A program made the translations under genes and the position numbers. Shown piece by piece: positions 1-16,916 of a DNA stretch of 64,000 bases. The notes beneath the pieces were generated by a model that saw only the letters and a program-made list of their open reading frames with translations, did not search any database and was not told where the DNA came from. Every line of letters begins with the position of its first letter. Positions within the stretch are counted from its first letter, which is position 1. This DNA is from Microbacterium sp. 1.5R (GTDB lineage: Bacteria; Actinomycetota; Actinomycetes; Actinomycetales; Microbacteriaceae). The DNA lies in assembly GCF_001889265.1 (NCBI RefSeq), contig NZ_CP018151.1, positions 1,674,001 through 1,738,000 of the forward strand, written 5' to 3'.

Positions 1-1061
1 TTCCACGCCTGCACCATAGAGGCCCAGTCCGCGTCAGGGTGCACGAAGATGCAGAGGGCAGAGACCTTGGGAGCCTCGGTCCAGTCCGGCAGCGCAGAGG
101 CCAGCCAGAGCGGCTGCGGGATGAGCGCAGTATTAGAGCCTTCTGCGCCGAAGAGGTTGAAGTACTCGCGGGTGTACTTCTTCACGCCCAGGCGTTCGTA
201 GCTGTTCTCGATGCGGTCCAGGGTGGTGAGGGTCCCGATACCGGGGTGCATCGCCAGCGTCAGCTCACGGGCACGGGCGCGCGGGTGGTCGGCGTCGGGT
301 ACCCACGCCTCCAGCTCCTCAGGGTCGGTGTCGTCCGCGAGCATGTACGCCACGCGTCCGGCGCGCTCATCGTGCAGCGTCTTCCAGAACTCGGAGCCGT
401 CACGGTAGTCACCGGCTGTACCGGCAAGGATGAGCTGGCCCTCAGGGCGCGTGTCGAAGGCGGGGATGACCGCCCCAATGATGTCCTCCCAGCGCTCAGG
501 GCTGGACTCTCCCGCCTCGTCCAGGAGGAGGGTGTCATACGCGCCGGAGCGCACGGCGTCACCGTCCGGCGAGAGCACGGAGAGGACCGAACCGTTGGGG
601 AACTCCACGCGCTCGGAGCCGTTGGAGCGGATGAGCTTGACGGGGCGCGCGTCATCCTCGGGCCAGCGGCGCGCAATGGGTCCATACACGTCCAGGCGGT
701 AGCGCTCTGAGGACTTCTTCTGGGTAGTGAGGAGCGTGAACGCGGCGAAGTGGACGGGACGCAGGTAGCAGCGACCCAGCAGAATGCAGAATAGGGTGGT
801 GGTCTTTGCGCTTCGACGCGGCATAATGACCGCATTCATGAGCGCGCCACCATTGAGCATGTCCGCAATTCGCAGCATCTGCGGGTGCACGGTCGCGAGA
901 ATCCCCAGCAGCCACGCGCCTACCAGGAACTCGTCCCGGCTCTGCTGCGTGGTCGTCAGCTCGGACTGGTACAGCGGTGCAATTCCTGAGTCGCGCTTGG
1001 CTAGCCACTCAGACTCCTCGCGGAGCGGGTGATTGGTTACCTCATCCGGTAGGGCTGTCAT
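1..1061 (-). CDS. terL: Phage terminase large subunit (3' end beyond the window)
   Basis: This is the ATPase and nuclease motor that packages phage DNA into proheads. The open frame has no stop before the window edge and gives at least 353 residues. The Walker A-type segment MPRRSAKTTT lies at residues 80-89, in the divergent R-x-x-x-K-T form usual for terminases, and the Walker B segment LLLDEAGE at about 178-185. The nuclease domain would lie in the missing C-terminal part. The ATG at 1061 overlaps the preceding 50-aa gene by 20 bp, so translation is probably coupled; the frame stays open upstream of it, so the start is not certain. An HNH gene a few genes upstream fits the usual HNH-terminase pairing of actinophages. 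Confidence 0.85.
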   Translation of the reverse strand, partial: MTALPDEVTNHPLREESEWLAKRDSGIAPLYQSELTTTQQSRDEFLVGAWLLGILATVHPQMLRIADMLNGGALMNAVIMPRRSAKTTTLFCILLGRCYLRPVHFAAFTLLTTQKKSSERYRLDVYGPIARRWPEDDARPVKLIRSNGSERVEFPNGSVLSVLSPDGDAVRSGAYDTLLLDEAGESSPERWEDIIGAVIPAFDTRPEGQLILAGTAGDYRDGSEFWKTLHDERAGRVAYMLADDTDPEELEAWVPDADHPRARARELTLAMHPGIGTLTTLDRIENSYERLGVKKYTREYFNLFGAEGSNTALIPQPLWLASALPDWTEAPKVSALCIFVHPDADWASMVQAW

Positions 1062-1194
1062 CGTCCATCCGTTCCAGAAGGTTTGCGGACTGAAGTTCAA
1101 TCGCCCGCGCGATGCGGTCCTCTGCGATTCCGGAGGGCGCGTACAGACGTACCTGTGCGGTTGCGCAGAGAGTTGCGAGGTCGGACACGTTCAT
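1042..1194 (-). CDS. Small 50-aa phage protein upstream of terL
   Basis: A 50-residue frame starts MNVSDLATLC and ends just inside terL. It is helical in character (RIARAIELQSANLLERMDDD) with no recognised domain. Its place directly before terL is where a small terminase subunit often lies, but it is too short for a normal TerS and I cannot assign it. An in-frame ATG five codons upstream (1209) is an alternative start; neither has a strong ribosome-binding site. The 20-bp overlap with terL argues that it is a real coupled gene. Confidence 0.5.
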   Translation of the reverse strand: MNVSDLATLCATAQVRLYAPSGIAEDRIARAIELQSANLLERMDDDSPTG

Positions 1195-1281
1195 GTGATT
1201 TCCATTCATGTGAATACGGGGAGAGAGACGCCTGTTAGAGCCGAAGGCGGGGATTGCTCTGCCGTGTCTTAAAAAACTCGG

Positions 1282-1404
1282 TCAGCGTGCGAATATCTCG
1301 GTGAAGTGTGCGAGGATCGCGTCACGGTCTAGCTGCTTGGCATCTACGTATCGCTGCTGCTCAGCCAGCTTCATGAAGAGGTCGGTTGCTTCATCGGGTG
1401 TCAT
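1282..1404 (-). CDS. Small 40-aa phage protein
   Basis: A 40-residue frame (MTPDEATDLFMKL...) whose ATG overlaps the stop of the upstream 71-aa gene as ATGA, the standard sign of translational coupling. It reads as a single amphipathic helix, rich in Asp, Glu, Lys and Gln. No family is recognised. The roughly 87 bases between it and the next gene hold nothing I can name. Confidence 0.5.
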   Translation of the reverse strand: MTPDEATDLFMKLAEQQRYVDAKQLDRDAILAHFTEIFAR

Positions 1405-1616
1405 GCCTTGTCCTTCGGTGCGTAGTCCATGACCTGCGCCCACGCCTCTCGCATCGCACGGCTTAGCTGCTCACGGAAGGCCAGCTCACGGTCCATCCAG
1501 CGCTGCGCCCACGCCACAACCTCGGCGTCTGCTGCGCCTCGCAGCCGGTCAGGTCCGTGCTCGGCAGCGATGTGACGGGCAAGGTCTACCTGTTCGGTGA
1601 AGTAGTCGCGGCTCAC
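1401..1616 (-). CDS. Hypothetical 71-aa phage protein
   Basis: A 71-residue soluble, mostly helical protein with several Trp residues (VAWAQRWMDRELAF). The GTG start overlaps the stop of the coiled-coil gene upstream as GTGA, and its own stop overlaps the next start as ATGA. No known domain is seen; the role is unknown beyond membership of the terminase-linked operon. Confidence 0.6.
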   Translation of the reverse strand: MSRDYFTEQVDLARHIAAEHGPDRLRGAADAEVVAWAQRWMDRELAFREQLSRAMREAWAQVMDYAPKDKA

Positions 1617-1819
1617 TCCTCTACCTCCTCGGGCAGGGCAGCAGCCAGCTCCTCGCGCTCTGTCTCCAGTGCGTCAAGCTGTGCAGCCGATGCGTCTAGC
1701 TGGGTCTGTAGGTTGGTGAGCTGTGACTCATAGCTGGTGAGTACCTGCGTCTCCTGCTCGATGCGTACATCTAGCTCGGTGATGCGTGCCTCAATGGCTG
1801 CGCGTACGGCGGCGTTCAT
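1613..1819 (-). CDS. Small coiled-coil phage protein, 68 aa
   Basis: Almost the whole protein is a predicted coiled coil: repeated leucine/isoleucine heptads run from ITELDVRIEQETQVL through LQTQLDASAAQLDALETERE, and the C-terminus is acidic (EEVEE). Its ATG overlaps the stop of the upstream IF-2-like gene as ATGA. Small coiled-coil proteins next to terminases can be small-terminase or scaffold-type helpers, but the sequence gives no specific assignment. Confidence 0.6.
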   Translation of the reverse strand: MNAAVRAAIEARITELDVRIEQETQVLTSYESQLTNLQTQLDASAAQLDALETEREELAAALPEEVEE

Positions 1820-2118
1820 GCCTGTGCCTCCACGTCTCCGACGCGCTGATACAGCACGTCACCTACCTGCACGTCTTCCCATACGCCCAGGCCCACGCCA
1901 GCCTCTAGTCCCTGCTCTGCCTCGGTGAGGTCGTCGGCGTACCGGCGAAGGCTCGCAACCTCCAGGTCGGAAGCCAGGTAGTCGTCTCCTCGTGTGAGGA
2001 CAACGGCGTCTGTGCGCGTGAAGGTGCCGTGAGTCACGATGACCCCGGCGATGTTGCCGAACTTCTTCGAGCGGAAGACCTCGCGGACTTCGGCGCGTGC
2101 TGCGGTTGATGCGGTCAT
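1816..2118 (-). CDS. Free-standing translation initiation factor IF-2 C-terminal (C2, domain IV) protein
   Basis: A complete 100-aa protein aligns by eye end to end with the last beta-barrel domain of bacterial IF-2, which in the full factor binds the formyl-methionyl end of initiator tRNA. Landmarks are AEVREVFRSKKFGNIAG (residues 8-24), a V-x-x-G turn, SLRRYADDLTE (about 57-67), GLEAGVGL and DVQVGDVLY. The G domain and all other IF-2 domains are absent. The Cys that many IF-2 proteins carry in IAGC and ECG are Val and Ala here. The start is the ATG at 2118, preceded by GGAG at a good distance and lying 10 bp after the HNH stop; a longer frame reaching 2355 only runs through the HNH gene in another phase. 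The role is unknown; binding initiator tRNA or the ribosome is an inference from the domain. Confidence 0.8.
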   Translation of the reverse strand: MTASTAARAEVREVFRSKKFGNIAGVIVTHGTFTRTDAVVLTRGDDYLASDLEVASLRRYADDLTEAEQGLEAGVGLGVWEDVQVGDVLYQRVGDVEAQA

Positions 2119-2128
2119 GGTGTTCTCC

Positions 2129-2440
2129 TCATACCCAGGGCGGACCCTGGAACTTGGTGCGGGTCTTTCCCGCGTTGGTGATGCGTGCACCTGAGCGGCC
2201 ACCCAGGTTGCGGTTGCCCGGGCATACCCCGGTCTTGGATCGATGCTCAGGTGCCAGGTTCTCCAGGCCCTCACCACCGAACGGGTCAAGGTGTCCCACG
2301 TCGAAGGGCGTGGTCTCGAAGATGAGACGCCCACAGCGCCAGCACGCCACGTCATCGCCGTTGTCCCACGCTGCGCGTACGCGCTTGCGCAGGTGCTTGG
2401 CGTTGCGCTGGTACTCGGTGGTCGTGTGCTTCTCGGACAT
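2129..2440 (-). CDS. HNH endonuclease
   Basis: A 103-aa metal-dependent HNH nuclease. The pattern is CWRCG (residues about 33-37), then DVGHLDPFGG with the central DxGH, a conserved Asn-Leu-Ala-Pro-x-His, and a final C-x-x-N. Phage HNH proteins beside terminases assist terminase cleavage during packaging in several phages (family knowledge). The ATG directly follows the TAA of the upstream gene with no spacer (TAAATG), so the two are probably co-translated. Confidence 0.85.
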   Translation of the reverse strand: MSEKHTTTEYQRNAKHLRKRVRAAWDNGDDVACWRCGRLIFETTPFDVGHLDPFGGEGLENLAPEHRSKTGVCPGNRNLGGRSGARITNAGKTRTKFQGPPWV

Positions 2441-2812
2441 TTAGCTCACCACAATGTGAGTAAAGCCCAGGTCACAGGTGATAACACTTTGGGTCTGGTC
2501 AACGCTCTGGACGGGTGCAACGCTGGTCTCATGAGACACAGCAGCAGCGGCCTTCAGACGGGCACGGGCAAGGCGCGAGTTAGCCGCCCAACGGGACCGG
2601 CAGCGGGTGCAGCGACATCCCCAGTTCGTGTATGTCCCCAGGCGTCCGTGCGCCTCGTCGGGCAGCTCAGCGATACGCTCACGGCGCTTGATGGTGCCCT
2701 CTAGCTGGTAGAGCGCGTGATCGGCCTTGCAGATATCACAACGGCATCGCCCGGTGGTGTACCGGGTGTTTGAGTGCGGGACTCCCTCCCGCTCGAATAG
2801 GTCTTCGGGCAT
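2441..2812 (-). CDS. Phage protein with two CxCxxC zinc-binding-like repeats
   Basis: A 123-aa protein with two similar modules: YTTGRCRCDIC near residue 18 and YTNWGCRCTRC near 62, each followed by a basic helix. The spacing C-x-C-x-x-C suggests paired metal-binding knuckles, perhaps a small DNA- or RNA-binding protein. Similar repeat proteins are common among unnamed actinophage products. It is the first gene of the leftward operon and seems leaderless: a TACAAT box stands six bases before the ATG, within an inverted repeat that could be an operator. Confidence 0.7.
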   Translation of the reverse strand: MPEDLFEREGVPHSNTRYTTGRCRCDICKADHALYQLEGTIKRRERIAELPDEAHGRLGTYTNWGCRCTRCRSRWAANSRLARARLKAAAAVSHETSVAPVQSVDQTQSVITCDLGFTHIVVS

Positions 2813-2845
2813 ATCACTATTGTACCAACCCGGCGTAATAGTGAT
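2813..2845 (-). promoter_or_regulatory. Operator-like inverted repeat over the leftward promoter
   Basis: A perfect 9-bp inverted repeat, ATCACTATT (2813-2821) and AATAGTGAT (2837-2845), has a 15-bp spacer. The minus-strand box TACAAT (2824-2819) sits at the inner edge of the left arm and exactly six bases upstream of the ATG at 2812; the right arm covers the -35 position. This is how a repressor site over a leaderless promoter would look. The protein that would bind it is not identified. Confidence 0.5.
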
Positions 2846-2850
2846 GAAGC

Positions 2851-2856
2851 ATTATA
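2851..2856 (-). promoter_or_regulatory. Possible second leftward -10 box (TATAAT)
   Basis: The minus strand reads a perfect TATAAT in the most AT-rich part of the region, about 40 bases upstream of the first leftward gene. No convincing -35 hexamer is at the right distance, so this may simply be part of an easily melted AT-rich stretch beside the repeat array. Confidence 0.3.
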
Positions 2857-2912
2857 TAACTCGCTACAGCCACACTACTGAAAGCAACTGAACACAACTA
2901 AACAGGGCATTT

Positions 2913-3129
2913 GGGGTAGTTTTTTCTCAGTCGCGCTGACACACTCCTAGAACGGCTTCAACCGATTTCCTGTAGAATAACTACCCTAGCTACCCTTTCC
3001 CTTTAGAGAGTAAGGGACTACCTACCCCAAACTTCACCCCAGAACTACCCCATGAATTACCCCAAGGTGTCGGTCACTTCTGAGCTGTCAAGGGCTGGGG
3101 TAGTTTTGGGGTAGTTTTTCGGGGTAGAA
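2913..3129. repeat. Phased GGGGTAGTT repeat array (iteron-like; candidate replication origin or operator cluster)
   Basis: The 9-mer GGGGTAGTT occurs at 2913-2921, 3097-3105 and 3108-3116, with GGGGTAGAA at 3121-3129. Inverted copies are AACTACCCT 2979-2987, CTACCC 2990-2995, CCTACCCC 3021-3028, AACTACCCC 3043-3051 and AATTACCCC 3055-3063. Neighbouring copies are often 10-13 bp apart, about one helical turn. The array lies just upstream of the helicase-primase operon next to AT-rich DNA, as iterons of phage and plasmid origins do. A cluster of repressor sites is the main alternative. Confidence 0.6.
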
Positions 3130-3172
3130 CTGCCCCAGCCACATGTCCTCATCTGAGGACGCATTCCATTTC

Positions 3173-3181
3173 TGCTAATAT
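3173..3181 (+). promoter_or_regulatory. Possible extended -10 promoter, copy 1
   Basis: TGCTAATAT is an extended -10 box (TG-n-TAATAT) reading toward the helicase-primase operon. The surrounding TTCTGCTAATATGGT closely resembles the second copy 85 bp downstream. The -35 region is weak (CTGAGG at a 17-bp spacing). Confidence 0.4.
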
Positions 3182-3257
3182 GGTCTTACTGGGTCGCCCA
3201 CGGATGAAAGCACTCCGAAAGTCCGCCCAGCCTTTCCGTCCAGGATCACGCCAATTC

Positions 3258-3266
3258 TGCTACAAT
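3258..3266 (+). promoter_or_regulatory. Possible extended -10 promoter, copy 2
   Basis: TGCTACAAT is again a TG-n extended -10 box inside TTCTGCTACAATGGT. Transcription from it would start about 90 bases before the 85-aa gene and would include the leader hairpin. No clear -35 hexamer is present. Confidence 0.4.
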
Positions 3267-3297
3267 GGTAGAGAGGCATTTCACCTTCTTTCTTATA

Positions 3298-3334
3298 GAG
3301 GCCCCGCATCGCCCTGGACGGTATGCGGGGCCTC
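3298..3334 (+). promoter_or_regulatory. Leader hairpin before the helicase-primase operon
   Basis: A perfect 12-bp stem (GAGGCCCCGCAT at 3298-3309 with its complement at 3323-3334) encloses a 13-base loop. No T-run follows, and a strong ribosome-binding site (AAGGAAG) comes shortly after. It may attenuate or stabilise the early transcript; it resembles a terminator stem but lacks the rest of one. Confidence 0.55.
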
Positions 3335-3357
3335 AGCGCATATAAGGAAGATTCACA

Positions 3358-3615
3358 ATGTCAAGCTTTGCTGACCTATTCGCGCAGGGAGAGCCTGCGA
3401 ACGATGTCACCCCGGAATACCACCCCTTCGGACCCAACCACTCGCTGCGTATCAACGGCGTGGCCTACTTCTACGAACCGGCAGAAGACCGCTGGCTCCG
3501 TGGCACGGTCACCCCGGCGCAGATGGACTACGCCTACAGCCTGAGCGCGGAGGACATCATGTACGGCATGGCCGATGGGTCGATGCACGTTGCCGTCTGG
3601 GTGGTGACACGATGA
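3358..3615 (+). CDS. Hypothetical 85-aa phage protein
   Basis: An 85-residue protein with a good ribosome-binding site (AAGGAAG, eight bases before the ATG). It is acidic and aromatic-rich (VAYFYEPAEDRWLRG) and shows no known domain, signal or membrane segment. Its 3' end overlaps the helicase-primase start by four bases, so the two are coupled, pointing to a role in element replication or its control. It has no visible helix-turn-helix and I would not call it a repressor. Confidence 0.65.
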   Translation: MSSFADLFAQGEPANDVTPEYHPFGPNHSLRINGVAYFYEPAEDRWLRGTVTPAQMDYAYSLSAEDIMYGMADGSMHVAVWVVTR

Positions 3616-4961
3616 CCGCCTACGATGCTGCGAAGATCAAGCGCAAGGACGCCTTCTCCGAAGAGGGCAAGTTCACCCCCAACGCCCTAGCCGTAGCCGT
3701 CTCGGACGGCGTGGCGGTCGGACCAGACGGCACGCTCTGGAGCTACCAGAGCGGCGTCTGGCGCTCGGACCCCGATGTCATTGACCACCGCGTAGCGCGC
3801 GTGCTGCGAGACGACTACACGATTGCGCGCGGCTCGGTCGTGGAGCGTCTGGTCCGCTACCTGCCGACGACGGACAAGCTGGAGACACCTGAGCCGAAGC
3901 AGTGGGACCCCATCATTAACTTCCGCAACTGCATGGTGGACTGGCAGCGCCCGGACGGCATCCTGGCCTTCGACCACGAGCCAACCGAACACTCGATGAT
4001 CCAGCTACCTGTGATGTACGACGCGGACGCTACCTGCCCGAACTTCCTGCGCTGGCTAGATGAAGTTCTCCCGGACGATATGCACCAGTTCTTCTGGGAG
4101 GTACTGGGGTACCTGCTCATGACCGGCAACCCTCTTCAGACAGCCGTACTGCTGCTCGGTGACCCGGGCACGGGCAAGTCCACCCTCCTCCACGTCCTGG
4201 AGGAGCTGCTGGGTCGTGAGAACCTGTCTGCGGAGTCGCTGAAGTCGCTGACCGAAAACCGGTTCTCGGCCTCCAGCCTCTACGGGAAGAGTGCCAACAT
4301 CGTGGGCGATATTGATACCGCCTACATGAATGACACCAGCCTCTTCCTACAGATCACGGGCGGCGACACCATGACCCATGAGCGCAAGGGTAAGGACGCC
4401 TTCCCGTTCCGCCCGTTCGCGGTCCCGGTCTTCTCCACCAATAAGGTCTGGCAGTCTGCGAACACATCGGGCGCGTACTTCCGACGCTGGACGATTCTGC
4501 CGTTTGACCGCAAGGTGGACCGGTCGAAGCCGTTCGATGAGACCACCCTGTTTGATGAAACCTCGGGTATCGCCAACCATGCCCTGCATGCCCTGCGCGA
4601 GCTGTACTACCGCACGGCTCCGGGACCGAAGGGCGAGGACATCCCCGCCCGTCATTTCGAAATCCTCGGCTCGGCACGTGAGGCGCGCGAGCGGTTTGCT
4701 CGGGAGTCTGACCCGATCCGCGAATGGCTGGATGAGGATGAGCTGGTTAACGCGGACGCGGGCAATGACCGCATGCGCGTTGCCCGGACCACGCTCTACG
4801 CGCGGTACGCGAGCTGGTGCGAGACCAACAACGTGAAGCCGAAGACGGGACCGAAGTTCTATCAGTCGATCCGTAGCCTCGGGCACAAGGAAATCAAGTC
4901 CAACGGGACGCTCCACTTCCTAGGCATTGATACGTGGACCCGGGATACGGTGGCAGCATGA
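3612..4961 (+). CDS. Phage D5-type helicase-primase (SF3 ATPase)
   Basis: A 449-aa D5_N/SF3 replicative helicase that would melt and unwind element DNA. The D5_N-like region is about residues 40-160. Walker A GDPGTGKST is at 183-191, the B segment NIVGDID at about 229-235, the sensor FSTNK at 274-278 and an arginine finger pair RRW at 291-292. A C-terminal winged-helix-like tail follows. The archaeo-eukaryotic primase domain of longer relatives is not evident, so primase activity may be absent or come from the host. The neighbouring repeat array is the likely place of action. The ATG at 3612 overlaps the upstream gene by 4 bp (ATGA). Confidence 0.88.
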   Translation: MTAYDAAKIKRKDAFSEEGKFTPNALAVAVSDGVAVGPDGTLWSYQSGVWRSDPDVIDHRVARVLRDDYTIARGSVVERLVRYLPTTDKLETPEPKQWDPIINFRNCMVDWQRPDGILAFDHEPTEHSMIQLPVMYDADATCPNFLRWLDEVLPDDMHQFFWEVLGYLLMTGNPLQTAVLLLGDPGTGKSTLLHVLEELLGRENLSAESLKSLTENRFSASSLYGKSANIVGDIDTAYMNDTSLFLQITGGDTMTHERKGKDAFPFRPFAVPVFSTNKVWQSANTSGAYFRRWTILPFDRKVDRSKPFDETTLFDETSGIANHALHALRELYYRTAPGPKGEDIPARHFEILGSAREARERFARESDPIREWLDEDELVNADAGNDRMRVARTTLYARYASWCETNNVKPKTGPKFYQSIRSLGHKEIKSNGTLHFLGIDTWTRDTVAA

Positions 4962-5167
4962 AGCGTCTAGCCGCCCTCGCGCTCGCGTCCGCGCTGCTCC
5001 TCACCGGCTGCGCAGCACCCACGCCCACGGACACGGCGATGTCTCGATGCATCGCCTTTGAGGTTGAGCAGATGGGTAGCTCGCCCGATGAGGCTCGGGA
5101 CAATTGCGTCAGCATCCAGGACGCGACCACCCCGGAGGAGTTCCTGGAACTCTGGAGCGAAGAGTGA
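4958..5167 (+). CDS. Small phage-encoded lipoprotein, 69 aa
   Basis: The protein begins MKRLAALALASALLLTGCAA, a textbook lipoprotein signal with lipobox LLTGC. The mature part is about 50 residues with two further Cys, and acidic. The ATG at 4958 overlaps the helicase stop as ATGA, so the lipoprotein is made from the replication operon. Small phage lipoproteins often act in superinfection exclusion by blocking DNA entry (known for some streptococcal phages); that role here is an inference. An upstream in-frame ATG (4934) would spoil the signal peptide. Confidence 0.75.
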   Translation: MKRLAALALASALLLTGCAAPTPTDTAMSRCIAFEVEQMGSSPDEARDNCVSIQDATTPEEFLELWSEE

Positions 5168-5295
5168 GCGCCGAACTCGCGGAGCTAAAGGCGCTCCAGC
5201 TCGACGCCCTCCGCAAGCAGCTCGAAGCCGCGCAGGACCTGGTGGCGTTCTACCGGCAGCAGTACCAGGACGCGCTGCGAGAGCAGACGCGTTAA
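5164..5295 (+). CDS. Short coiled-coil phage protein, 43 aa
   Basis: Starts with GTG overlapping the lipoprotein stop as GTGA. The 43 residues form one long amphipathic helix (LAELKALQLDALRKQLEAAQ). No family is recognised. It is the last gene before a strong hairpin terminator, so it closes the rightward operon. Confidence 0.6.
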   Translation: MSAELAELKALQLDALRKQLEAAQDLVAFYRQQYQDALREQTR

Positions 5296-5300
5296 CGAAA

Positions 5301-5327
5301 GAGGCCCGGGCATTGCGCCCGGGCCTC
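5301..5327. terminator. Bidirectional hairpin terminator
   Basis: An 11-bp GC-rich stem (GAGGCCCGGGC / GCCCGGGCCTC) with a 5-base loop lies between the converging 43-aa gene and the integrase gene. Short T-rich flanks follow on the plus strand and an A-rich run precedes it, so it can serve both strands. Confidence 0.8.
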
Positions 5328-5334
5328 TTGATGT

Positions 5335-6702
5335 CTACGGGCGCTGCTCGACCCTCAGGCCCTGGAGGCCCGGGTGTGCCTCCGTACGACTCTCCACTCT
5401 CACGCGGTCCAGACCTCGACCCTTCGTGACGGTGATGGTCAGGCGGTTATCGACCAGGGTTCGCTGCGCGTCCAGGTCCAGCGCGTCGAAGTACTCCAGC
5501 CATGCACCCAAGTCCATCGTCACGGACCCGTCCTCTTCCTCCACCAGGTCCTTCGTGGCGTCCGCCATGTGCCGAAGCAGACGCTGGACGTGGTTGGACA
5601 CCCGGGACTCTGCAAGCTGCGCCGCGACCGCCTGAATCTCCAGACCCACGCGGTTTAGCTCCTTCTCGATGAGCGGGAAGGATGCACCCGGCAGACCGGC
5701 AGCGCGGGTCCAGCGGTCCCGCTCCTCTTCCAGCTCGCGGAGCTTCCCGGCGAGCGGACCCAGCGCCGCCTCACCCGGCTTGCCCGCCTCCTGGAAGAGG
5801 TCCAGAGCCAGGTACCCCTTGACGTGCGGCTCCAGGTCGCGGCGGTAGATGGTCGCGTGCGAGGAGTCAGCCGAACACTTGTAGTAGATCGAGAGGGCGC
5901 GCATGCTCGCTCCGCACTCGCAGCGTGCGATGCCAGACAGAAGGTGCTTGCGCTGAGGACCGGGGGACACCCGGCGCGCCTCATCTGCCAGGAGGTCCTG
6001 GACCGCGTGCCAGGTGTCACGGTCTACGATGCGTGCGACCTCGGGCGCGGCCTCGAAGCGCTCGCCTCCACGGACGACCCAGCCCGCATAGGAGGGGTTG
6101 GTCAGAATCTCGCGGACCCGCACGGGAGGCCTACCCCACTCGCCCGCGATGGACCGGAGCGAACGTCCTGTGAGGATGTCCTTGTACGCCTCCCGCACCT
6201 GGTCCGCCTCCTCGGGACGCTCCTCGATGTTGCGCAGCTCGAAGCCGAAGCGCCGCTTGCCCGGAACCGGCAGACCCCGGCGCGCCACCCGGTCCGCGTT
6301 TGCACGGACGGACCGCTCACCCTTGCGCCGAACCTCGAAGCGGGCGAGGGCGGCAATCATCGTGGCGCGGAACTCACCGTCTGCGGTGGAGAGGTCAATC
6401 TCACCGTCTACGGTCACTACCCGCTTGCCCGCCTCCAGGAGCGTGAGGAGGTCGCGCTGGCTGCGGACCATGCGGTCCAGGTCCACACTCACCACGACTT
6501 CATGCGGGGACGCGAGGAGCCGCGCCCACGCGCTCTGTGCGCCTCGCGCCTTGGTGGCGCTGGTGGCGTTGTCCTCGAAGGTTTCCGCGATGGTCCAGCC
6601 TCGCGACTCGACCAGTGCGCGGCAGCGGGCAAGCTGGCGCTTGATGCCCTCCGCATGCTCGACGGACTGACGCACATAGACCGCGACCGCGTTACTTGAC
6701 AT
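5335..6702 (-). CDS. int: Large serine recombinase (phage integrase)
   Basis: A 455-aa site-specific integrase. The resolvase-type catalytic domain starts at the N-terminus with VAVYVRQS, placing the nucleophile at Ser13, and carries LDRMVRSQRD near residue 75. The recombinase domain spans about 150-250 (GKRRFGFELRN...). A zinc-ribbon-like segment has CEC at 261-263 and Cys276, and a coiled coil with LRELEEERDRW lies around 320-335. Enzymes of this group join attP and attB and need a directionality factor to excise; no such factor is recognised nearby. The gene points away from dprA, with its ATG almost at the element boundary. Confidence 0.93.
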   Translation of the reverse strand: MSSNAVAVYVRQSVEHAEGIKRQLARCRALVESRGWTIAETFEDNATSATKARGAQSAWARLLASPHEVVVSVDLDRMVRSQRDLLTLLEAGKRVVTVDGEIDLSTADGEFRATMIAALARFEVRRKGERSVRANADRVARRGLPVPGKRRFGFELRNIEERPEEADQVREAYKDILTGRSLRSIAGEWGRPPVRVREILTNPSYAGWVVRGGERFEAAPEVARIVDRDTWHAVQDLLADEARRVSPGPQRKHLLSGIARCECGASMRALSIYYKCSADSSHATIYRRDLEPHVKGYLALDLFQEAGKPGEAALGPLAGKLRELEEERDRWTRAAGLPGASFPLIEKELNRVGLEIQAVAAQLAESRVSNHVQRLLRHMADATKDLVEEEDGSVTMDLGAWLEYFDALDLDAQRTLVDNRLTITVTKGRGLDRVRVESRTEAHPGLQGLRVEQRP

Positions 6703-6712
6703 AGCTGAGATT
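6703..6712. other. Inferred element/chromosome junction (attachment-site core)
   Basis: Reading rightward, the DprA frame is open from 6705 (Leu-Arg-Phe-Tyr-Ser-Arg-Asn-Arg-Leu-Ile-Ala-Ala-Leu) and closed by TAG at 6702, which overlaps the integrase start codon. DprA proteins usually have Arg-Phe or Trp-Arg-Phe just before this R-N-R motif, so host sequence probably begins within a few bases of 6705. The exact core cannot be fixed without the other junction. Confidence 0.55.
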
Positions 6713-7172
6713 CTATTCGCGCAACAGACTCATCGCCGCTCTCGGCGACGCGACGGTCGTGGTGGAGGCAGGGTGGCGGAGCGGTTCACTGAACACCGCA
6801 GGACACGCGGCTGCGCTCGGACGGCCGCTCGGTGCGGTGCCTGGGCCTGTGACCTCCGCATCGTCGGCCGGCTGTCATCGGCTTCTTCGTGAATACGACG
6901 CGAGATGCGTCACGACCACCGCCGAGATACGCGAGTTGTGGGGTGACGCCGCACCCGGGACGACCGTTGGCGGAGCCACGGACCCGGATCGGTCTCGGGT
7001 GCTCGACGCCCTGAGCAGTCGCTCCGCACGACCCGTTCTCGAGCTGTCCCGAAGATCGGGGCTCGCTCCCGAGAGGATCGGCGCCCTCCTCGGGCTCCTG
7101 GAGCTGGATGGGATTGTCACGCGCGTCGAGAGCGGATGGCGGAAACGGCCGGACGGAGAGCGGCGCGGCTGA
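6705..7172 (+). pseudogene. dprA: 3' remnant of dprA, interrupted by the element
   Basis: DprA loads RecA on incoming single-stranded DNA during natural transformation. Only the C-terminal part is here: the end of the Rossmann-type domain (RNRLIAALGDATVVVEAGWR, then SGSLNTAGHAAALGRPLGAVPG) and the winged-helix tail. The frame is cut by TAG at 6702, exactly at the integrase. A GTG at 6759 could start a 137-aa fragment, but this lacks most of the core fold. The 5' part should lie beyond the far end of the element, outside the window. xerC follows, as expected for dprA in this group. Confidence 0.85.
6711..6716 (-). promoter_or_regulatory. Possible -10 box of the integrase gene
   Basis: The minus strand reads TAGAAT seven bases before the integrase ATG, similar to the leaderless promoters elsewhere in the window. 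The box and everything upstream of it lie in what appears to be dprA coding sequence, so expression of the integrase in the integrated state may depend on host DNA. Confidence 0.4.
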
Positions 7173-7207
7173 CACCGCGCGGATTCGCGCTCCTGCACAC
7201 TTGATCC

Positions 7208-8110
7208 ATGCAGTTCCAGGCAGCAGCACACGCCTTCACCGAGCATCTCTCCCGAGTGCGTCGGCTGTCTTCAGCGACTGTGCGGGCCTACCGATCTGAT
7301 CTCCGTGATCTCGCGGAGACCGTCGGCGATCGCGAGCTCGAAGACGTCACACTCGAGACACTGCGCGACTGGCTGTGGCGCGCGACTCAACGGGGGGACG
7401 CGCGGTCAACACTCGCGCGGCGCGCCGCGGCGGCGCGGTCCTTCTTCAGCTGGGCGCAGGAGCAGCAGCTCGTCGCACACGATCCGAGTCTCCGGCTGGT
7501 AGCCCCGAAGCGGGGGCGGACGCTGCCCGTCATCGCCTCTCAGGACGCGATGACGACTCTTCTCGAGGCGCAACGGCACGCCGCCGCCGCCGGTGATCCG
7601 ATCGCGCTCCGCGACCATGCGATTCTCGAGCTGCTGTACGGGGCAGGCATCCGAGTCTCCGAGCTGTGCGGACTCGATGTCGACGATCTGGACCTCGACC
7701 GGGGCACGGCGCGCGTGTTGGGAAAAGGCGCGAAAGAGAGGGTGGTGCCCTACGGTGCTCCTGCACGTGATGCCACCGGTGCCTACCTGTCTCGAGGGCG
7801 GCCCTCACTGGCAGCACGAGCTACTCGGCCGTCGCCCGCTCTGCTACTCGGCAGTCGAGGCGCGCGGATCGGACCGCGCGCGGTCTATTCGCTCGTCGCC
7901 GAGGTGCTCGCACCGTTCATCGGGGCGGACACGGTCGGCCCGCATGCGCTGAGACACACTGCCGCGACCCACCTCCTGGACGGCGGCGCGGACTTGCGAG
8001 CGGTGCAGGAGATCCTCGGCCATGCGAGTCTCGGTACGACCCAGATCTACACCCACGTGTCCGCCGAACGGCTGACCGCGACGTATCGCCTCGCACACCC
8101 GCGCGCCTGA
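7208..8110 (+). CDS. xerC: Tyrosine recombinase XerC
   Basis: A 300-aa chromosome-dimer recombinase that acts with XerD at dif. The SAM-like core-binding domain covers residues 1-90; the catalytic domain carries Arg149 (GAGIRVSEL), Lys173 (LGKGAKE), His246 and Arg249 ([13 protein letters not shown]), His272 (LGHASLGTT) and the nucleophile Tyr281. The length is normal. It follows dprA closely, and a weak CACACT box six bases before the ATG suggests a leaderless start. Its position upstream of rpsB is typical of Actinobacteria. It is chromosomal and not part of the phage element. Confidence 0.9.
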
Positions 8111-8126
8111 ACACCCGGTCACCGAT

Positions 8127-8654
8127 TCATGGGGTCGTGCAGCAGGGGAGCAGCACCGCCCTGGGTACGGCGCCGAAGAGGAGCATCGGGTTGATGTACG
8201 CGCCATCCATTCGCACACCGAGGTGCAGAGTGCCGGGCGCCGCGTGGCCACCGGCAGCCACGGTGCCGATCACCTGCCCCGATGAGATCGCGTCTCCCGG
8301 CGAGAGCTCGGAGGACAACGGCTCGAACGTCGACACGTAGCCACCGGGGTGCTCGATCGTGATCAGAGGCCTGTCGACGACGGTTCCGCGGAATGCGATC
8401 GTCCCGTCGGCGGGAGCGCGGATCACAGCCCCCGGCGTCGTCGCGAGGTCCATCCCTCGATGGCCGGCACCGTACTCGTGCGCGGGAGCGCGATACGGCG
8501 ACGCGATCGCGCGGCGCTCATCGGTCGGCCAGAGCCAGACGGGATACCTCTCACCTTCCGCGGATGACGCGCGCGCACGCGCCGGGATCGGAGCGACGAG
8601 AATCAGGACGACCAGCAGAAGGAACGCGATGGTCGCGCGTGCGCGGGAGTTCAT
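8127..8654 (-). CDS. Secreted M23 (LytM-like) peptidase-domain protein, probably non-catalytic
   Basis: A 175-aa protein with an N-terminal signal or anchor helix (IAFLLLVVLILVAPI) followed by an M23 fold from about residue 45. The first zinc motif HRGMD is present. The second motif, normally H-L-H, reads T-L-H-L: the metal-binding His is kept but the catalytic first His is Thr. This suggests a peptidoglycan-binding or amidase-activating role rather than an endopeptidase. It is convergent with xerC and divergent from rpsB, the usual actinobacterial place for this gene. Confidence 0.8.
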   Translation of the reverse strand: MNSRARATIAFLLLVVLILVAPIPARARASSAEGERYPVWLWPTDERRAIASPYRAPAHEYGAGHRGMDLATTPGAVIRAPADGTIAFRGTVVDRPLITIEHPGGYVSTFEPLSSELSPGDAISSGQVIGTVAAGGHAAPGTLHLGVRMDGAYINPMLLFGAVPRAVLLPCCTTP

Positions 8655-8960
8655 GAGGCAATGGTCCGTCGCTCCCGCCGGCGGAGGGACGCGTCATCGC
8701 AACCCTCGCGATCCATGTGGGGAAGACATGGCTTCGGTGCATCGTGCAGGAGGAGTGAGGCCGCCGCATCCTGTATGCTGTTGGAGCACCTCGATCTCGG
8801 GGTGACTACGCGTGCCCAGAGCGACTTCGGTCGTGGCATCCACTCCCACTGGTCCTGATTCCACTCAGGCGGGTGTGCGCCCGGGCACCAGGGAGTTCGG
8901 TCGTCCGATCGACTCGACAACCTCAAGGGCGCAGAATCGCGCCGGAACAAGGAGACGACC
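8655..8960 (+). promoter_or_regulatory. rpsB upstream and leader region
   Basis: About 306 bases without a convincing gene separate the divergent M23 gene and rpsB. A TATGCT box at 8774-8779 could be the -10 of the rpsB operon, giving a leader of roughly 180 bases, which would fit S2-mediated autoregulation known in other bacteria; no specific S2-binding structure is identified. A clear ribosome-binding site (AAGGAG) precedes rpsB. Confidence 0.35.
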
Positions 8961-9905
8961 ATGGCTGTGGTCACCATCCGCCAGCTGCTCGACAGCGGCG
9001 TGCACTTCGGACACCAGACCCGTCGGTGGAACCCGAAGGTCAAGCGCTTCATCCTCACGGAGCGCAGCGGCATCCACATCATCGACCTCCAGCAGTCGCT
9101 CGGCTACATCGACAAGGCCTACGACTTCGTCAAGGAGACCGTCGCGCACGGCGGCACGATCCTCTTCGTCGGCACGAAGAAGCAGGCGCAGGAGATCCTC
9201 GCGGAGCAGGCCACGCGCGTCGGCCAGCCCTACGTCAACCAGCGCTGGCTCGGTGGACTCCTCACCAACTTCCAGACCATCGCGAAGCGTCTCGCTCGCA
9301 TGAAGGAGCTCGAGGAGCTCGACTACGAGAACCCGGCTGCCTCGGGCTTCACCAAGAAGGAACTCCTTCTCAAGAAGCGTGAGCTCGACAAGCTCCACAA
9401 GTCGCTCGGTGGTATCCGCAACCTCACCAAGACGCCGTCCGCTCTCTGGGTCGTCGACGCCAAGCGCGAGCACCTCGCCATCGACGAGGCCAAGAAGCTC
9501 GGCATCCCGGTGATCGGCATTCTCGACACCAACGCCGACCCGGACGACTTCCAGTACCCGATCCCCGGCAACGACGACGCCATCCGCTCGGTCTCGCTGC
9601 TCACCCGCATCATCGCGGACGCAGCGGCAGAGGGCCTGCAGCAGAAGCACAACCCCGAGACGGGCGACGCTGAGCCGCTCGCCGACTGGGAGAAGGAGCT
9701 CCTCGAGGCTCCCGTCCAGGAGTCGGCTGACGCCGCAGAGGTCGATGACGCCGCAGCTGACGAGGCTGCCACCGTCGAGACCCCCGCTGCCGACGAGACC
9801 GCTGCTGACGAGGCCGGCGCCGAGGCGCACGACGAGGCCATCGCTGCCGCTTCCGGCGAGGAGACCGCTGAGGTCGCCGCCGCCGAGGCAGCAGACGCCA
9901 AGTAA
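8961..9905 (+). CDS. rpsB: 30S ribosomal protein S2
   Basis: Begins [20 protein letters not shown], the S2 signature, and continues with WNPKVKRFI and [15 protein letters not shown]. It is needed for small-subunit assembly and for S1 docking in species that have it. At 314 aa it is longer than E. coli S2 (241): the last 70 or so residues are a low-complexity acidic Ala/Glu/Asp tail, common in Microbacteriaceae. AAGGAGA lies before the ATG. It is followed by tsf as in nearly all bacteria. Confidence 0.97.
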
Positions 9906-9949
9906 TTCCGCGACCACCACACACATCACGAAGCAAGGAGCCACCACAC

Positions 9950-10777
9950 ATGGCCAACTTCACCATCGCCGACCTCAAGGCGCTGCGTGAGCAGCTCGGA
10001 ACGGGAATGGTCGACACCAAGAAGGCGCTCGAGGAGGCCGACGGAGACGTCGAGAAGGCCACCGAGATCCTGCGTCTCAAGGGTGCCAAGGGCAACGCGA
10101 AGCGTGCCGACCGTTCGACCAGCGAGGGCCTCATCGTCGCTCGCGAGCAGGACGGCGCAGTGACGCTGATCGAGCTCGCCTGCGAGACGGACTTCGTCGC
10201 GAAGAACGAGCGCTTCATCGCACTGGCCGACAAGGTCGCCGACGCTGTCGCGGCAGTCAAGGCCGACTCGGTCGAGGCCGGACTCGCCGCCCAGGCAGGC
10301 GACAAGAGCGTCGAGCAGGTCATCTCGGAAGAGGCTGCGATCATCGGCGAGAAGGTCGAACTTCGTCGCGTTCGCACGATCACCGGCGACAACGTCGAGG
10401 TCTACCTGCACCGCACGAGCAAGGACCTCCCGCCGCAGATCGGCGTCGTCGTCGCCTACACGGGTGACAACGCCGAGACCGCTCGCAGCATCGCGCAGCA
10501 CATCTCGTTCGCGAACCCGTCGTACCTGTCCCGCGAGGACGTCCCGGCTGACGCCGTGGAGAAGGAGCGCGAGATCGTCACCGAGATCTCCCGCAACGAG
10601 GGCAAGCCGGAAGCGGCTCTGCCCAAGATCGTCGAGGGCCGTGTCTCCGCGTTCATCAAGCAGGTCGCACTGCTCGAGCAGGACTACGCGAAGGACAACA
10701 AGCTCTCCGTCGCCCAGGTGGCGAAGGACGCCGGTATCACCGTGACGGACTTCGCGCGCTTCAAGGTCGGCGCGTAA
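9950..10777 (+). CDS. tsf: Elongation factor Ts
   Basis: The guanine-nucleotide exchange factor for EF-Tu, 275 aa. The N-terminal UBA-like domain (IADLKALREQLGTGMVDTKK) and the TDFVAKNERF core motif, whose Asp-Phe inserts into EF-Tu, are intact. AAGGAG precedes the ATG at nine bases. It is co-transcribed with rpsB and ends at a strong hairpin. Confidence 0.97.
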   Translation: MANFTIADLKALREQLGTGMVDTKKALEEADGDVEKATEILRLKGAKGNAKRADRSTSEGLIVAREQDGAVTLIELACETDFVAKNERFIALADKVADAVAAVKADSVEAGLAAQAGDKSVEQVISEEAAIIGEKVELRRVRTITGDNVEVYLHRTSKDLPPQIGVVVAYTGDNAETARSIAQHISFANPSYLSREDVPADAVEKEREIVTEISRNEGKPEAALPKIVEGRVSAFIKQVALLEQDYAKDNKLSVAQVAKDAGITVTDFARFKVGA

Positions 10778-10784
10778 CACCGTC

Positions 10785-10818
10785 GAAGGGGTTCGGATCA
10801 CATGATCCGAACCCCTTC
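10785..10818 (+). terminator. Terminator after rpsB-tsf
   Basis: A perfect 16-bp inverted repeat (GAAGGGGTTCGGATCA and complement) separated by two bases, followed by TTCATG. The pairs nearest the loop would open, leaving a stem of about 13 bp. It separates tsf from pyrH. Confidence 0.8.
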
Positions 10819-10867
10819 TTCATGCCCAGAAGGCACTATCTTGAATCGGGACGAGAGGAACACCCCC

Positions 10868-11584
10868 ATGACCGAAGGCAACGGACGCCGTCGCGTTCTC
10901 CTGAAGCTCTCCGGTGAGGCGTTCGGCGCCGGACAGCTCGGCGTCAACCCCGACGTCGTCAGCCAGATCGCCCGTGACATCGCCGCGGCCGTCGACCGCG
11001 TAGAGATCGCGATCGTCGTCGGCGGCGGCAACTTCTTCCGCGGAGCGGAACTCAGCCAGCGCGGAATGGACCGGGGGCGAGCCGACTACATGGGCATGCT
11101 CGGCACGGTGATGAACGCCCTCGCGCTGCAGGACTTCCTCGAGCAGGCCGGAGCGCCGACCCGCGTGCAGTCCGCGATCTCGATGACGCAGGTCGCCGAG
11201 CCGTACATCCCGCTGCGGGCCGAGCGGCACATGGAGAAGGGCCGCGTCGTCATCTTCGGCGCCGGAGCGGGCCTCCCGTACTTCTCCACCGACACGGTCG
11301 CCGCGCAGCGCGCGCTGGAGATCGGGGCGCAGGAGGTGCTCGTGGCCAAGAACGGCGTCGACGCCATCTACACCGCGGACCCGAACAAGCACGCCGACGC
11401 CGAGCGCATCGAGCGCGTGACCTACCGCGATGCCCTTCAGCGCGGCCTCAAGGTGGTCGACTCGACCGCGTTCAGCCTCTGCATGGACAACAACATGGAC
11501 ATGAGGGTGTTCGGCATGGAGCCGGCGGGCAATGTCACGCGTGCGCTCCTCGGAGAGCCGATCGGCACTCTCGTCACCGCCTGA
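10868..11584 (+). CDS. pyrH: UMP kinase
   Basis: Phosphorylates UMP to UDP in pyrimidine nucleotide synthesis; a hexameric amino-acid-kinase-fold enzyme. The 238-aa product starts [19 protein letters not shown], and the ATP/UMP motifs [24 protein letters not shown] and [12 protein letters not shown] are present. An in-frame ATG at 10802 would add 22 residues not seen in the family and lies in the tsf terminator, so 10868 is preferred. It precedes frr and cdsA. Confidence 0.95.
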
Positions 11585-11650
11585 GTCCCTGACGGTGCTC
11601 ACGCGCCGCGCCAGATAGAATTTCAGAACACCCCGACGATAGGAGTCACC

Positions 11651-12205
11651 GTGATCGCGGATGTCCTCGCTGAAACCACCTCCCGTATGGCACGAGCGGT
11701 CGAGGCCGCCAAGGAGGACTTCTCCACGGTGCGCACGGGTCGCGCCAACCCGCAGCTCTTCCAGAAGGTGCTCGTCGACTACTACGGAACGCCGACGCCG
11801 CTCGCCCAGCTCGCCTCTCTGGCGAACCAGGAGGCGCGCACCCTCATCATCACTCCCTACGACAAGAGTGCTCTGAAGGGGATCGAGCAGGCGATCCGGG
11901 ACATGCCGAACCTCGGCGCGAACCCCACGAACGACGGCAACCTCGTCCGCGTGACGATGCCCGAGCTCACGGCTGAGCGCCGCAAGGAGTACGTCAAGCT
12001 CGTCAAGACCAAGGCCGAGGACGCCAAGGTGCACGTGCGCGGCATCCGTCGCAAGGCCAAGGACGAACTCGACGGTCTCAAGAGCGAGCTCGGAGAAGAC
12101 GAGATCTCTCGCGGAGAGAAGGAACTCGACGCCCTCACGCGCCAGCACGTCGACCTCATCGACGACGCACTCAAGCGCAAAGAGGCTGAGCTCCTCGAGG
12201 TGTAG
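11651..12205 (+). CDS. frr: Ribosome recycling factor
   Basis: Splits post-termination ribosomes together with EF-G. The 184-aa, all-helical arm plus small hinge domain is typical: [23 protein letters not shown], then [14 protein letters not shown], and [20 protein letters not shown] at the hinge end. GTG start with TAGGAG upstream. A TAGAAT box about 35 bases before the start could be its own promoter. Normal length. Confidence 0.96.
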
Positions 12206-12210
12206 GCGGC

Positions 12211-13350
12211 ATGTCCGACGAACGCACCGATGACGGCACCGACAAGCCGCAGACGCGCCGGGAGGCGCGCGACTCGTCGACCTCGACCGGCGCCATCCCG
12301 CTGGTCGACGGCGCCTTCCCGGCGTTCGACGCGACGAGCATCCCGCCACGTCCACCTCTCCCCGCCGAGGAGCGCGCGATGACGGAGTCTCCGTTGGACA
12401 CAGCTGATCACAACGCGATCAGAGAGCAGTGGCGTGCCGCACGCGACGAGTTCGGGACCCACGTCACGAATGCTCGCGGGCAGCTCGACCAGGCGAACGA
12501 GCGCATCAAGGAGCGCACAGGGCGTGACCTGATCCTCGCGACGCTGATCGGGCTGGCGTTCGGCGCCGCCCTGCTCGCCTCGCTGCTGTTCATCAAGGTC
12601 CTCTTCGTGCCGTTCGCGTTGGCAGCGGCGCTGCTCGGGGTGTACGAGCTTTCCCTGGCACTGCGCGCGTCCGGGCGGCGGATCGACGTGATCGCTCAGT
12701 TCGTGGCGGCGACGCTGCTCGTGCTGTCCGCGTTCTTCCTCGACCTGTGGTTCGTCTGGGTGATGCTGTTCTTCGCCGTCGCATTCGTGATCGTGTGGCG
12801 GTTGGTCGCCCAGATGGTCGCCAAGGACGGCAGAACCTACGGCGATGTGCTGACGGATGCCGTCATCGGAGGCTTCGTTCAGATCTACGTGCCGTTCCTC
12901 GCGGCGGTCGCCCTGATCCTGCTCAAGCAGGAGGGTGGCCAGTGGTGGGTGCTGAGCTTCATCGCCATCGCCGTCGTGGCGGACACCGGCGCGTATGCCG
13001 CCGGGCTGGCCTTCGGCCGGCATCCGATGGCCCCGCGAATCAGTCCCAAGAAGACGTGGGAAGGGTTCGGTGGAGCCGTGGTGGGTTCCATCACGGCGGG
13101 TGTCCTCCTCGCGATCTTCCTGTTGCATCTGCCCTGGTGGATCGGCGTGATCTTCGGCGTCGCCATCCTGCTGTCCGCGACCCTCGGCGACCTCGGGGAG
13201 TCCATGCTCAAGCGTGATCTCGGAATCAAGGACATGAGCTCCTGGCTGCCCGGTCACGGCGGGCTCCTCGATCGACTCGACAGCATCCTTCCGTCGACGG
13301 TGCCCGCGCTGTGCCTGTATTTCCTCTTCTCCTCCTGGGTGGTGCTGTGA
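12211..13350 (+). CDS. cdsA: Phosphatidate cytidylyltransferase
   Basis: Makes CDP-diacylglycerol from phosphatidate and CTP at the membrane, the branch point of phospholipid synthesis. The protein has 379 aa. The first 110 residues are hydrophilic and poorly conserved (actinobacterial extension); about eight membrane helices follow. The C-terminal signature KKTWEGFGGA, then ESMLKRDLGIKD (S-x-x-K-R-x4-K-D) and LPGHGGLLDRLDS is intact. The stop overlaps the next start by one base (TGATG). Confidence 0.93.
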   Translation: MSDERTDDGTDKPQTRREARDSSTSTGAIPLVDGAFPAFDATSIPPRPPLPAEERAMTESPLDTADHNAIREQWRAARDEFGTHVTNARGQLDQANERIKERTGRDLILATLIGLAFGAALLASLLFIKVLFVPFALAAALLGVYELSLALRASGRRIDVIAQFVAATLLVLSAFFLDLWFVWVMLFFAVAFVIVWRLVAQMVAKDGRTYGDVLTDAVIGGFVQIYVPFLAAVALILLKQEGGQWWVLSFIAIAVVADTGAYAAGLAFGRHPMAPRISPKKTWEGFGGAVVGSITAGVLLAIFLLHLPWWIGVIFGVAILLSATLGDLGESMLKRDLGIKDMSSWLPGHGGLLDRLDSILPSTVPALCLYFLFSSWVVL

Positions 13351-13934
13351 TGGTCTCCGACGACGTGCGAACATCGGACGGTTCGGTTCAGCCTCCGGCC
13401 GCGTTCTCTGTGACGACCGGTCGCGTGCGCGGCTATCACCGCGCAGCGGTCGACACGTTCCTGGCAGCCGCTCGGGCTGCATTCGAAGGCGACGCGGACG
13501 ATCTCGGCGCAGCCGACGTACGCGTGGCGTCCTTCCCGCTGGTGAAGAACGGCTATGTCGTGGCAGAGGTCGATGCCGCGCTCGGGAGAGTCGAGGACGC
13601 GCTGGCGGCTCGCGCGCGTGACCGGGCCGTCCGGTCGCAGGGCGCGGGGGCATGGGTCGAGCAGGCACGAGACGATGCCCAGATCATCCTCGACCACCTC
13701 GCGCGTCCGAAGCGTCAGCGTTTCGCGCGGACGGGCGTCCTCACCTTCGGGTATCGCATCGACGAGGTCGACCATGTGGGCACCCGCATCGCCCGCTATC
13801 TGCGAGACGGCGAACCGCTGACGGCCGAGCAGCTGCGTTCGGCGGCGTTCCGCATGCAGCGCGGCGGGTACCGGGAAGAGCAGGTGGATGCCCTTCTCGA
13901 CGCTACCGTCGATGTGATCCTGGCGGTTCGCTGA
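13350..13934 (+). CDS. DivIVA-domain repeat protein
   Basis: A 194-aa cytoplasmic protein with four short copies of the DivI1A motif, an aromatic or Phe followed by Gly-Tyr and then Val-Asp: GRVRGYHRAAVDTF, KNGYVVAEVDAAL, FGYRIDEVDHVG and RGGYREEQVDALL. DivIVA-type motifs occur in actinobacterial polar-growth and septum proteins. The coiled coil of true DivIVA/Wag31 is missing, so this is not the main polar scaffold. The start is the ATG overlapping the cdsA stop, which fits the repeat boundaries; an earlier ATG lies inside cdsA. Confidence 0.75.
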   Translation: MVSDDVRTSDGSVQPPAAFSVTTGRVRGYHRAAVDTFLAAARAAFEGDADDLGAADVRVASFPLVKNGYVVAEVDAALGRVEDALAARARDRAVRSQGAGAWVEQARDDAQIILDHLARPKRQRFARTGVLTFGYRIDEVDHVGTRIARYLRDGEPLTAEQLRSAAFRMQRGGYREEQVDALLDATVDVILAVR

Positions 13935-13982
13935 GCGTTCTGATGGCCGACTCACGCCTCACCGGGTAGACTGCCACTCATC

Positions 13983-14666: not shown

Positions 14667-14675
14667 GTCGGCCTC

Positions 14676-14963
14676 ATGGCCCGCTCTCGCAGACGCCGTC
14701 CGGCGCGCCCTGACACCGACGATTCGCTCGATCGACTCCTCGCGTCCTGGAAGCGCACGGAAGTCCGTCGTGGTTCCGAGTGGACCGTCCAGCCGGTGTC
14801 GGCAGCTCAGGCGCTGAAGGAGTACATCTGTCCTGGGTGCGGGCGATCGGTTGTTCCCGGAACCGCTCATCTCGTGATCTGGCGCGCGGACGGGGTGCTC
14901 GGTGACGCCGCAGACCTCGCGGCACGCAGGCATTGGCACACACACTGTTGGAGGATTGCGTGA
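14676..14963 (+). CDS. Conserved small protein with CPGCG motif
   Basis: A 95-aa basic protein; the N-terminal Arg-rich stretch is followed by YICPGCGRSVVPG and a C-terminal HWHTHCW. Two Cys plus His/Cys could hold zinc. It is commonly found in this position in related genomes (impression, not searched) and has no assigned function. Its stop overlaps the start of the following hydrolase (GTGA). Confidence 0.65.
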   Translation: MARSRRRRPARPDTDDSLDRLLASWKRTEVRRGSEWTVQPVSAAQALKEYICPGCGRSVVPGTAHLVIWRADGVLGDAADLAARRHWHTHCWRIA

Positions 14964-16737: not shown

Positions 16738-16916
16738 CGTTGCTCCTCGGAATGGGGGACTCTGCAAGCGTATCCACCGCACCACGACCGGCCGGGACGA
16801 CGTGCCGCACGTGGTGCCGCATGCCCCTCGTGGGCAACACACAGGTGATTTCGCTAGTCTGAAATGTCGAGTGTTGCGACTCGGGCGTGCGTCCGGGCCG
16901 TGTGAGGAGACTATTC

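Follow-up and report, generated by a model that had tools for sequence, protein, structure and literature searches.

A prophage of Microbacterium carries a stand-alone homologue of the C2 domain of initiation factor IF2

The window analysed here is a 64,000-nucleotide stretch of the Microbacterium sp. 1.5R genome (contig NZ_CP018151.1, positions 1,674,001 to 1,738,000). Its first ~6.7 kb form the right part of a prophage of ~18 kb (genome G000, ~1662709-1680706; about 1209-19206 of the locus L029), and in this part a short gene lies in a block with genes for an HNH endonuclease and the large terminase (terL). The surrounding frame is open for 209 residues, of which the open reading frame (ORF) proper takes up 100. 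Judged by its sequence, the product is a homologue of domain IV (C2) of the bacterial translation initiation factor IF2 alone, not of the whole factor.

A phmmer search of the PDB with the window C2 protein returns IF2 chains only (E 1e-16 to IF2; 1.4e-13 to 1d1n, an isolated C2), and the best matches cover residues 8-89 and fall at the C-terminal end of IF2. The NCBIfam IF-2 profile is matched with E 2.7e-17, at 492-574 of its 587 positions only. The similarity is limited to domain IV; the G domain and domains II and C1 are not present. Pfam gives only PF03144 (25.7 versus 30.3 bits) and PF22042 (16 versus 27 bits), both below their cut-offs, and this signal is that of an EF-Tu-domain-2-type barrel. 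Identity is 34-44% to bacterial IF2 C2 chains versus 16-24% to EF-Tu/EF1A rows, and reaches 52-57% with actinobacterial IF2. The original prediction had described a complete 100-residue protein matching domain IV only and had called for profile and structure searches. These bear the description out: IF2 C2 is the best match by sequence, and IF2 chains come top by structure.

The window C2 protein is predicted to have the β-barrel fold of IF2 C2. The AlphaFold model is an all-β barrel with a mean pLDDT of 82.6, although 49 of the 51 rows in the input alignment are IF2 pieces and the model may lean that way. Its best Foldseek match is Pseudomonas aeruginosa IF2 (TM 0.80, r.m.s.d. 1.0, 44% identity). 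Seven viral structure matches at E <= 0.001 bear names that we take to be those of giant viruses. In VIA-align, IF2 chains take the top ranks and EF-Tu domain II follows within one Z unit; because this gap is so small, the fold is insufficient to tell the two apart and the sequence decides.

The genes around C2 are collected in Table 1. The original prediction placed C2 between HNH and terL with tight coupling. The coupling is seen on both sides, since HNH adjoins C2, the likely ribosome-binding site overlaps the HNH stop codon, and the C2 stop overlaps the ATG of the following 68-residue ORF as ATGA (1816-1819). However, terL is not the next gene, as four small ORFs precede or enter its start. 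The whole terL gene lies at C1:1673535-1675061 of the genome. No promoter-like site was found in window 1000-3700, and Rfam gave no match in window 1-7200.

Table 1. Features of the prophage part of the window, in window coordinates
Feature	Position	Strand	Remarks
Stand-alone IF2 C2 (domain IV) homologue	1816..2118	-	100 aa, ATG start, complete ORF
GAGGAG, likely ribosome-binding site of C2 gene	2125..2130	-	overlaps HNH stop codon 2129-2131
HNH endonuclease, 103 aa, directly upstream of C2	2129..2440	-	PHROG 1808 E 2.2e-5; 59% aa identity to TPD7010 HNH
68-aa protein, probably coiled coil	1613..1819	-	weak coiled-coil-type family matches, all below cut-off
71-aa ORF	1401..1616	-	no family at E <= 0.1
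Short ORF from the ATG at 1404, inside the 53-aa GTG ORF 1282-1443	1282..1404	-	no family for 1285-1395 part
55-aa ORF, end inside terL start	1042..1209	-	ORF list
Large terminase terL, runs off window	1..1061	-	PHROG 9 E 4.6e-22; 70% identical to TPD7010 terL
123-aa protein upstream of HNH	2441..2812	-	HTH DNA-binding/HNH-like PHROG matches; PHROG 14857 E 2.4e-9
Phage primase/helicase (D5_N, DUF5906)	3612..4961	+	Pfam/PHROG profiles
Serine integrase, right prophage end	5335..6702	-	Resolvase + Recombinase Pfam; PHROG 95 E 1.8e-65
Approximate right prophage end	6700..6712	.	dprA frame resumes just beyond

A second member is found in a prophage of Microbacterium testaceum TPD7010 (G020), where a 77-residue stand-alone homologue named hypothetical protein in the database (P0003) occupies the same slot, in the order HNH, C2, small ORFs, terL. 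The two C2 proteins are about 39-42% identical (39% over 79 columns), P0003 being 23 residues shorter; between the two prophages amino-acid identity is 70% for terL, 59% for HNH and 42% for C2. PHROGs v4 holds no family for the window protein at E <= 1 and none for P0003 at E <= 0.01. AlphaFold gives P0003 a pLDDT of 87 in one of five models and 49-56 in the other four, which makes it the weaker structural evidence. Tyr60, Glu68 and Leu71 are common to both phage proteins and occur in 1, 0 and 0 of 49 IF2 rows, respectively. This shared synteny and these residues rare in IF2 favour a single capture of C2, and sequence trees are not its basis. The prediction had taken the gene as maintained, not debris, and had suggested looking for it beside terL elsewhere; a complete ORF in the same slot of a diverged prophage agrees with this, and means that homologues of the window protein are not always fragments of infB.

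The host keeps its own infB at 1487 kb. The C2 of this IF2, which reads ...EVFRSSKFGNIAGVIV...SLRRFKDD...EAGIGL, is 52% identical to the window protein over residues 8-89. The replacement of the two cysteines usual in IF2 by Val and Ala, pointed out originally, is correctly read (Val26 and Ala73, at C815 and C861 of E. coli IF2), but it is not peculiar to the phage. The host's IF2 has the same Val and Ala, as do 15 of 16 Microbacterium infB loci (from 15 genomes, G000 being counted twice); the remaining one, TPD7010's own, has Val/Cys. Among 12 infB loci from other genera of the family, seven are Val/Ala, three Val/Cys and one Ser/Cys, and one has Ala at the second site, the first not being read. 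Alignment A4 has 49 IF2 rows: at the first site 20 carry Cys, 14 Val, 13 Ser and two another residue, and at the second site 40 carry Cys, eight Ala and one Gly. Since the cysteine pair varies among IF2 rows and is absent from the host's IF2, it does not define the C2 family. Together with the 52-57% identity to actinobacterial IF2, the Val/Ala pair suggests, without settling the matter, that the source was close to the host lineage.

C2 alone carries all fMet-tRNA determinants of IF2 and binds the acceptor end with the strength of the native factor (PMC4611024). In E. coli C2, R847G strongly reduces affinity (PMC8709274), and in P. aeruginosa IF2, Phe799 contacts fMet, and residues 781-788 form a hairpin that docks on C1 and is also in contact with the SRL (PMC9192638). 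The equivalents of Arg847 and Phe799 in the window protein are Arg59 and Tyr60, and P0003 has Arg-Tyr at the same columns. The hairpin is different: of its five named residues the window protein has four replaced, compared with the host's IF2 it departs at all five (as read from alignment A3), and P0003 has most of this region deleted. Of 42 near-invariant IF2 columns in residues 8-93, the window protein keeps 28, and its losses comprise four of the five such columns within 39-47 versus 10 of 37 elsewhere. A changed C1-docking face with kept tRNA contacts is what would be expected of a C2 freed from C1 that still meets the tRNA end. The kept contact residues favour capture of initiator tRNA over another ligand, but are no proof of it.

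C2 looks like a real, rare phage gene of which two members are known. With a cut-off that leaves out infB, and that would miss any member less alike than infB, it is present in two of 366 Microbacterium genomes, and an order-level sample of 396 genomes holds none besides the window's own. A search of 198 Microbacterium genomes with the window protein matched 197, with two matches in four (G000 included), and a family-level search of 299 genomes at E 0.01 matched 292, with two matches in five (the window's own and four that were rejected); in both searches a single match per genome was taken as infB without opening. In G005 and G196 the second match is to a chromosomal protein of EF-Tu domain 2 type, not IF2 C2. 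Four others were judged by frame length and place: G066 (145-residue frame) is probably the same chromosomal protein, G599 has infB split over contigs, G616 has a second infB that is likely contamination, and G648 has a 612-residue frame.

Related terL genes occur in 41 of the 366 genomes. Thirty of these loci were fetched together with flanks of at most about 1.5 kb, and C2 is present in two (G000 and G020). Six loci were listed in full: L050 (terL 70% identical) and L052 (62%) have HNH followed by a coiled-coil ORF, L053, L054, L060 and L061 have HNH upstream of terL, and none has C2. Likewise, C2 occurs only in the TPD7010 contig among 17 viral-contig loci, L031, L034, L035 and L036 being without the slot. 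C2 is thus an accessory gene that the HNH/terL block has either acquired or lost. The window's 68-residue ORF is 44% (L050) and 42% (L052) identical over 62 columns to the post-HNH ORF of these two prophages without C2, whereas the post-C2 ORFs of the two C2 prophages give no BLASTP alignment and are 30% identical when alignment is forced. This pattern suggests that C2 may lack a constant companion gene when it moves. As a side observation on the positions concerned (L048 648-902 and window 1613-1819), the window's post-C2 ORF resembles those of C2-less prophages and, by BLASTP, not that of the other C2 prophage.

Larger collections add no further confirmed member. In a search of 5.8 billion proteins, the 14 candidates for the window protein included the protein itself and a single infB fragment; with the pair alignment A1, the 38 candidates included the window protein, P0003 and the same infB fragment. 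Nine rows of A3 gave 7775 matches among 8000 scored; many of the best 120 of these 7775 are named IF-2 or carry PF11987, and since their contexts are unopened a further stand-alone member is possible. Scans of viral contigs found no relative with the window protein, and only the TPD7010 contig with P0003, A3 or the motif pattern. In the phage collection 17 records matched and two were opened. L003 745-3276 (OQ572408.1, 'Pseudomonas phage Y6', marked unverified) is an 844-codon frame with an IF2 C2 match, probably a bacterial infB, and L004 has a frame open at the record end, taken as infB.

We propose that the C2 domain (domain IV) at the end of an actinobacterial infB was taken up by a small Microbacterium phage, which has kept it as a free β-barrel of 77-100 residues encoded in its HNH/terminase block. 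The free domain would hold initiator tRNA by its formyl-methionyl CCA end, outside control by GTP or the ribosome. Made late, alongside the packaging genes, it would compete with host IF2 for initiator tRNA or cap the fMet end, and translation initiation might in this way be modulated or protected while virions assemble. That the captured C2 binds the acceptor end of fMet-tRNA, is made late, and either competes with the other users of initiator tRNA or shields the tRNA against them has, in our estimate from sequence comparisons, somewhat less than an even chance of being right. We hold more tentatively still that it acts as a trap, in which free C2 takes fMet-tRNA outside the control of GTPase and ribosome and an 18-kb phage throttles, redirects or protects initiation during virion assembly.

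Several observations weigh against this proposal. Only two members are known, and the late timing is taken from gene order. The window protein retains 28 of 42 conserved versus 15 of 44 variable columns (p 0.002), but consensus identity is inherently lower in variable columns, and in P0003 the difference (18 of 38 versus 10 of 34) is not significant (p 0.09). Lys61, a lysine in 48 of 49 IF2 rows, is lost in the window protein, and Glu72, present in all 49, is lost in P0003. Part of the retention could serve folding, because few residues of IF2 are more conserved than those kept. Between the two phage genes dS is near saturation. In a tree of 142 rows and 89 columns, one supported branch (96/99) unites 14 Microbacterium rows with 10 of 11 other family rows and leaves the window protein outside. 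The two phage proteins do not come out as sisters; their branches are very long (2.93 and about 10), and the tree program flags their place as unsure.

Less likely, the barrel may have been co-opted for packaging or for another DNA or protein role in the HNH-terminase block and no longer meet tRNA. Its position in this block, with overlapping start and stop codons, would fit, and host IF2 promotes phage Mu transposition-replication in vitro (PMC3334882), a case in which parts of IF2 can meet phage DNA processes. We nevertheless consider such a role unlikely, given that related prophages have HNH and terL without C2, which is then no fixed part of the packaging machinery, and that the tRNA contacts are kept while the C1-docking face is altered. 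Less probable again is counter-defence, in which C2 would shield the end of the initiator tRNA from host toxins or nucleases that hit initiator tRNA or IF2, or act as a decoy for them. The patchy presence of C2 in Microbacterium and its fast change relative to terL are what an arms-race gene would show, and tRNA-targeting defences have been described (PMC10264068), but PADLOC gave no match for either C2 protein at E <= 0.1.

A passenger fragment of infB without function, decaying or newly captured, would account for there being only two copies found, strongly diverged and one of them 23 residues shorter. It is improbable, since both ORFs are complete with a likely ribosome-binding site, lie in the same slot of two phages whose terL genes differ by 30%, have in common residues that are rare in IF2, and show dN below dS. 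That the protein is a generic EF-Tu domain-II barrel, IF2-like by fold only, is scarcely credible in view of its much higher identity to IF2 C2 than to EF-Tu/EF1A, the profile match at domain IV, and its 52% identity to the host's IF2 C2.

The captured C2 resembles domain IV of bacterial IF2 (1d1n, 7unv) in its homologous sequence, predicted barrel, and contact Arg and aromatic residue. It differs from the bacterial factor in lacking the N-terminal, G, II and C1 domains, in its 77-100 residues, and in a C1 hairpin that is altered or largely deleted. Huge phages likewise carry genes of the host translation machinery (IF1, IF3, EF-G, -Tu and -Ts), but the passages on them do not name IF2 and their genomes exceed 200 kb, against ~18 kb here (PMC7162821). 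Viral barrels are also known among IF2/eIF5B-like proteins of giant viruses, such as the 127-residue Indivirus ILV1 entry A0A1V0SDY2 ('translation initiation factor IF-2' in BFVD), which matches the window model with TM 0.67, 20% identity and E 3e-4; these belong to viruses of eukaryotes and are 7-22% identical. Single translation-type barrels without a G domain occur outside phages as well. Pyrococcus abyssi Pbp11 (7anu, 88 residues) is of EF-Tu domain 2 type and 16-17% identical, and the literature search gave no paper joining Pbp11 and PCNA. The 148-residue Microbacterium chromosomal protein at L024 is a lone barrel of the same type. In the loci of this chromosomal protein (L023 1480-2334 in G196; L024 1480-1926 in G005), no G domain is present and PF03144 is above cut-off.

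No description of a phage-borne lone IF2 C2 was found in the open-licence literature, in agreement with the original remark that no such phage system was known. Pieces of the translation machinery on phages are already known, and it is the lone initiator-tRNA-binding domain of IF2 that, within this literature, appears new. If the phage C2 does bind fMet-tRNA, it would be a minimal natural probe of how C2 acts without the rest of IF2, and would test directly whether phages influence initiation via the initiator tRNA itself; the 77-residue P0003, in which most of the C1-docking hairpin is missing, would show how small a part of the barrel suffices.

In the prophage, profiles identify the serine integrase, the D5-type primase, HNH and terL as well as major head and tail genes. 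The portal, tape measure and other genes take their names solely from gene order and length in comparison with Microbacterium phage PensacolaC28 (PP978844.1, 16.7 kb), which has a terL 37% identical, the same order of terL, portal, capsid/protease fusion and tail genes, and an HNH gene at the right end of its linear record. PensacolaC28 differs in having a tyrosine integrase, and an endolysin and two membrane proteins after the minor tail gene; it is not among the 17 matched phage-collection records and so has no C2 match. The ORF lists of the prophage show no endolysin or holin in the stretch that separates the last minor tail gene from the left end (L029 1209-2308), no lysis-profile search having been made, and the element may thus be unable to lyse alone. 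No tRNA gene is present in L029. The prophage ends were read on both sides, with no common stretch of at least 7 bases, and their position is approximate; GATTC was seen in both by eye. The gene that the prophage splits is, as we take it from the protein sequence, dprA.
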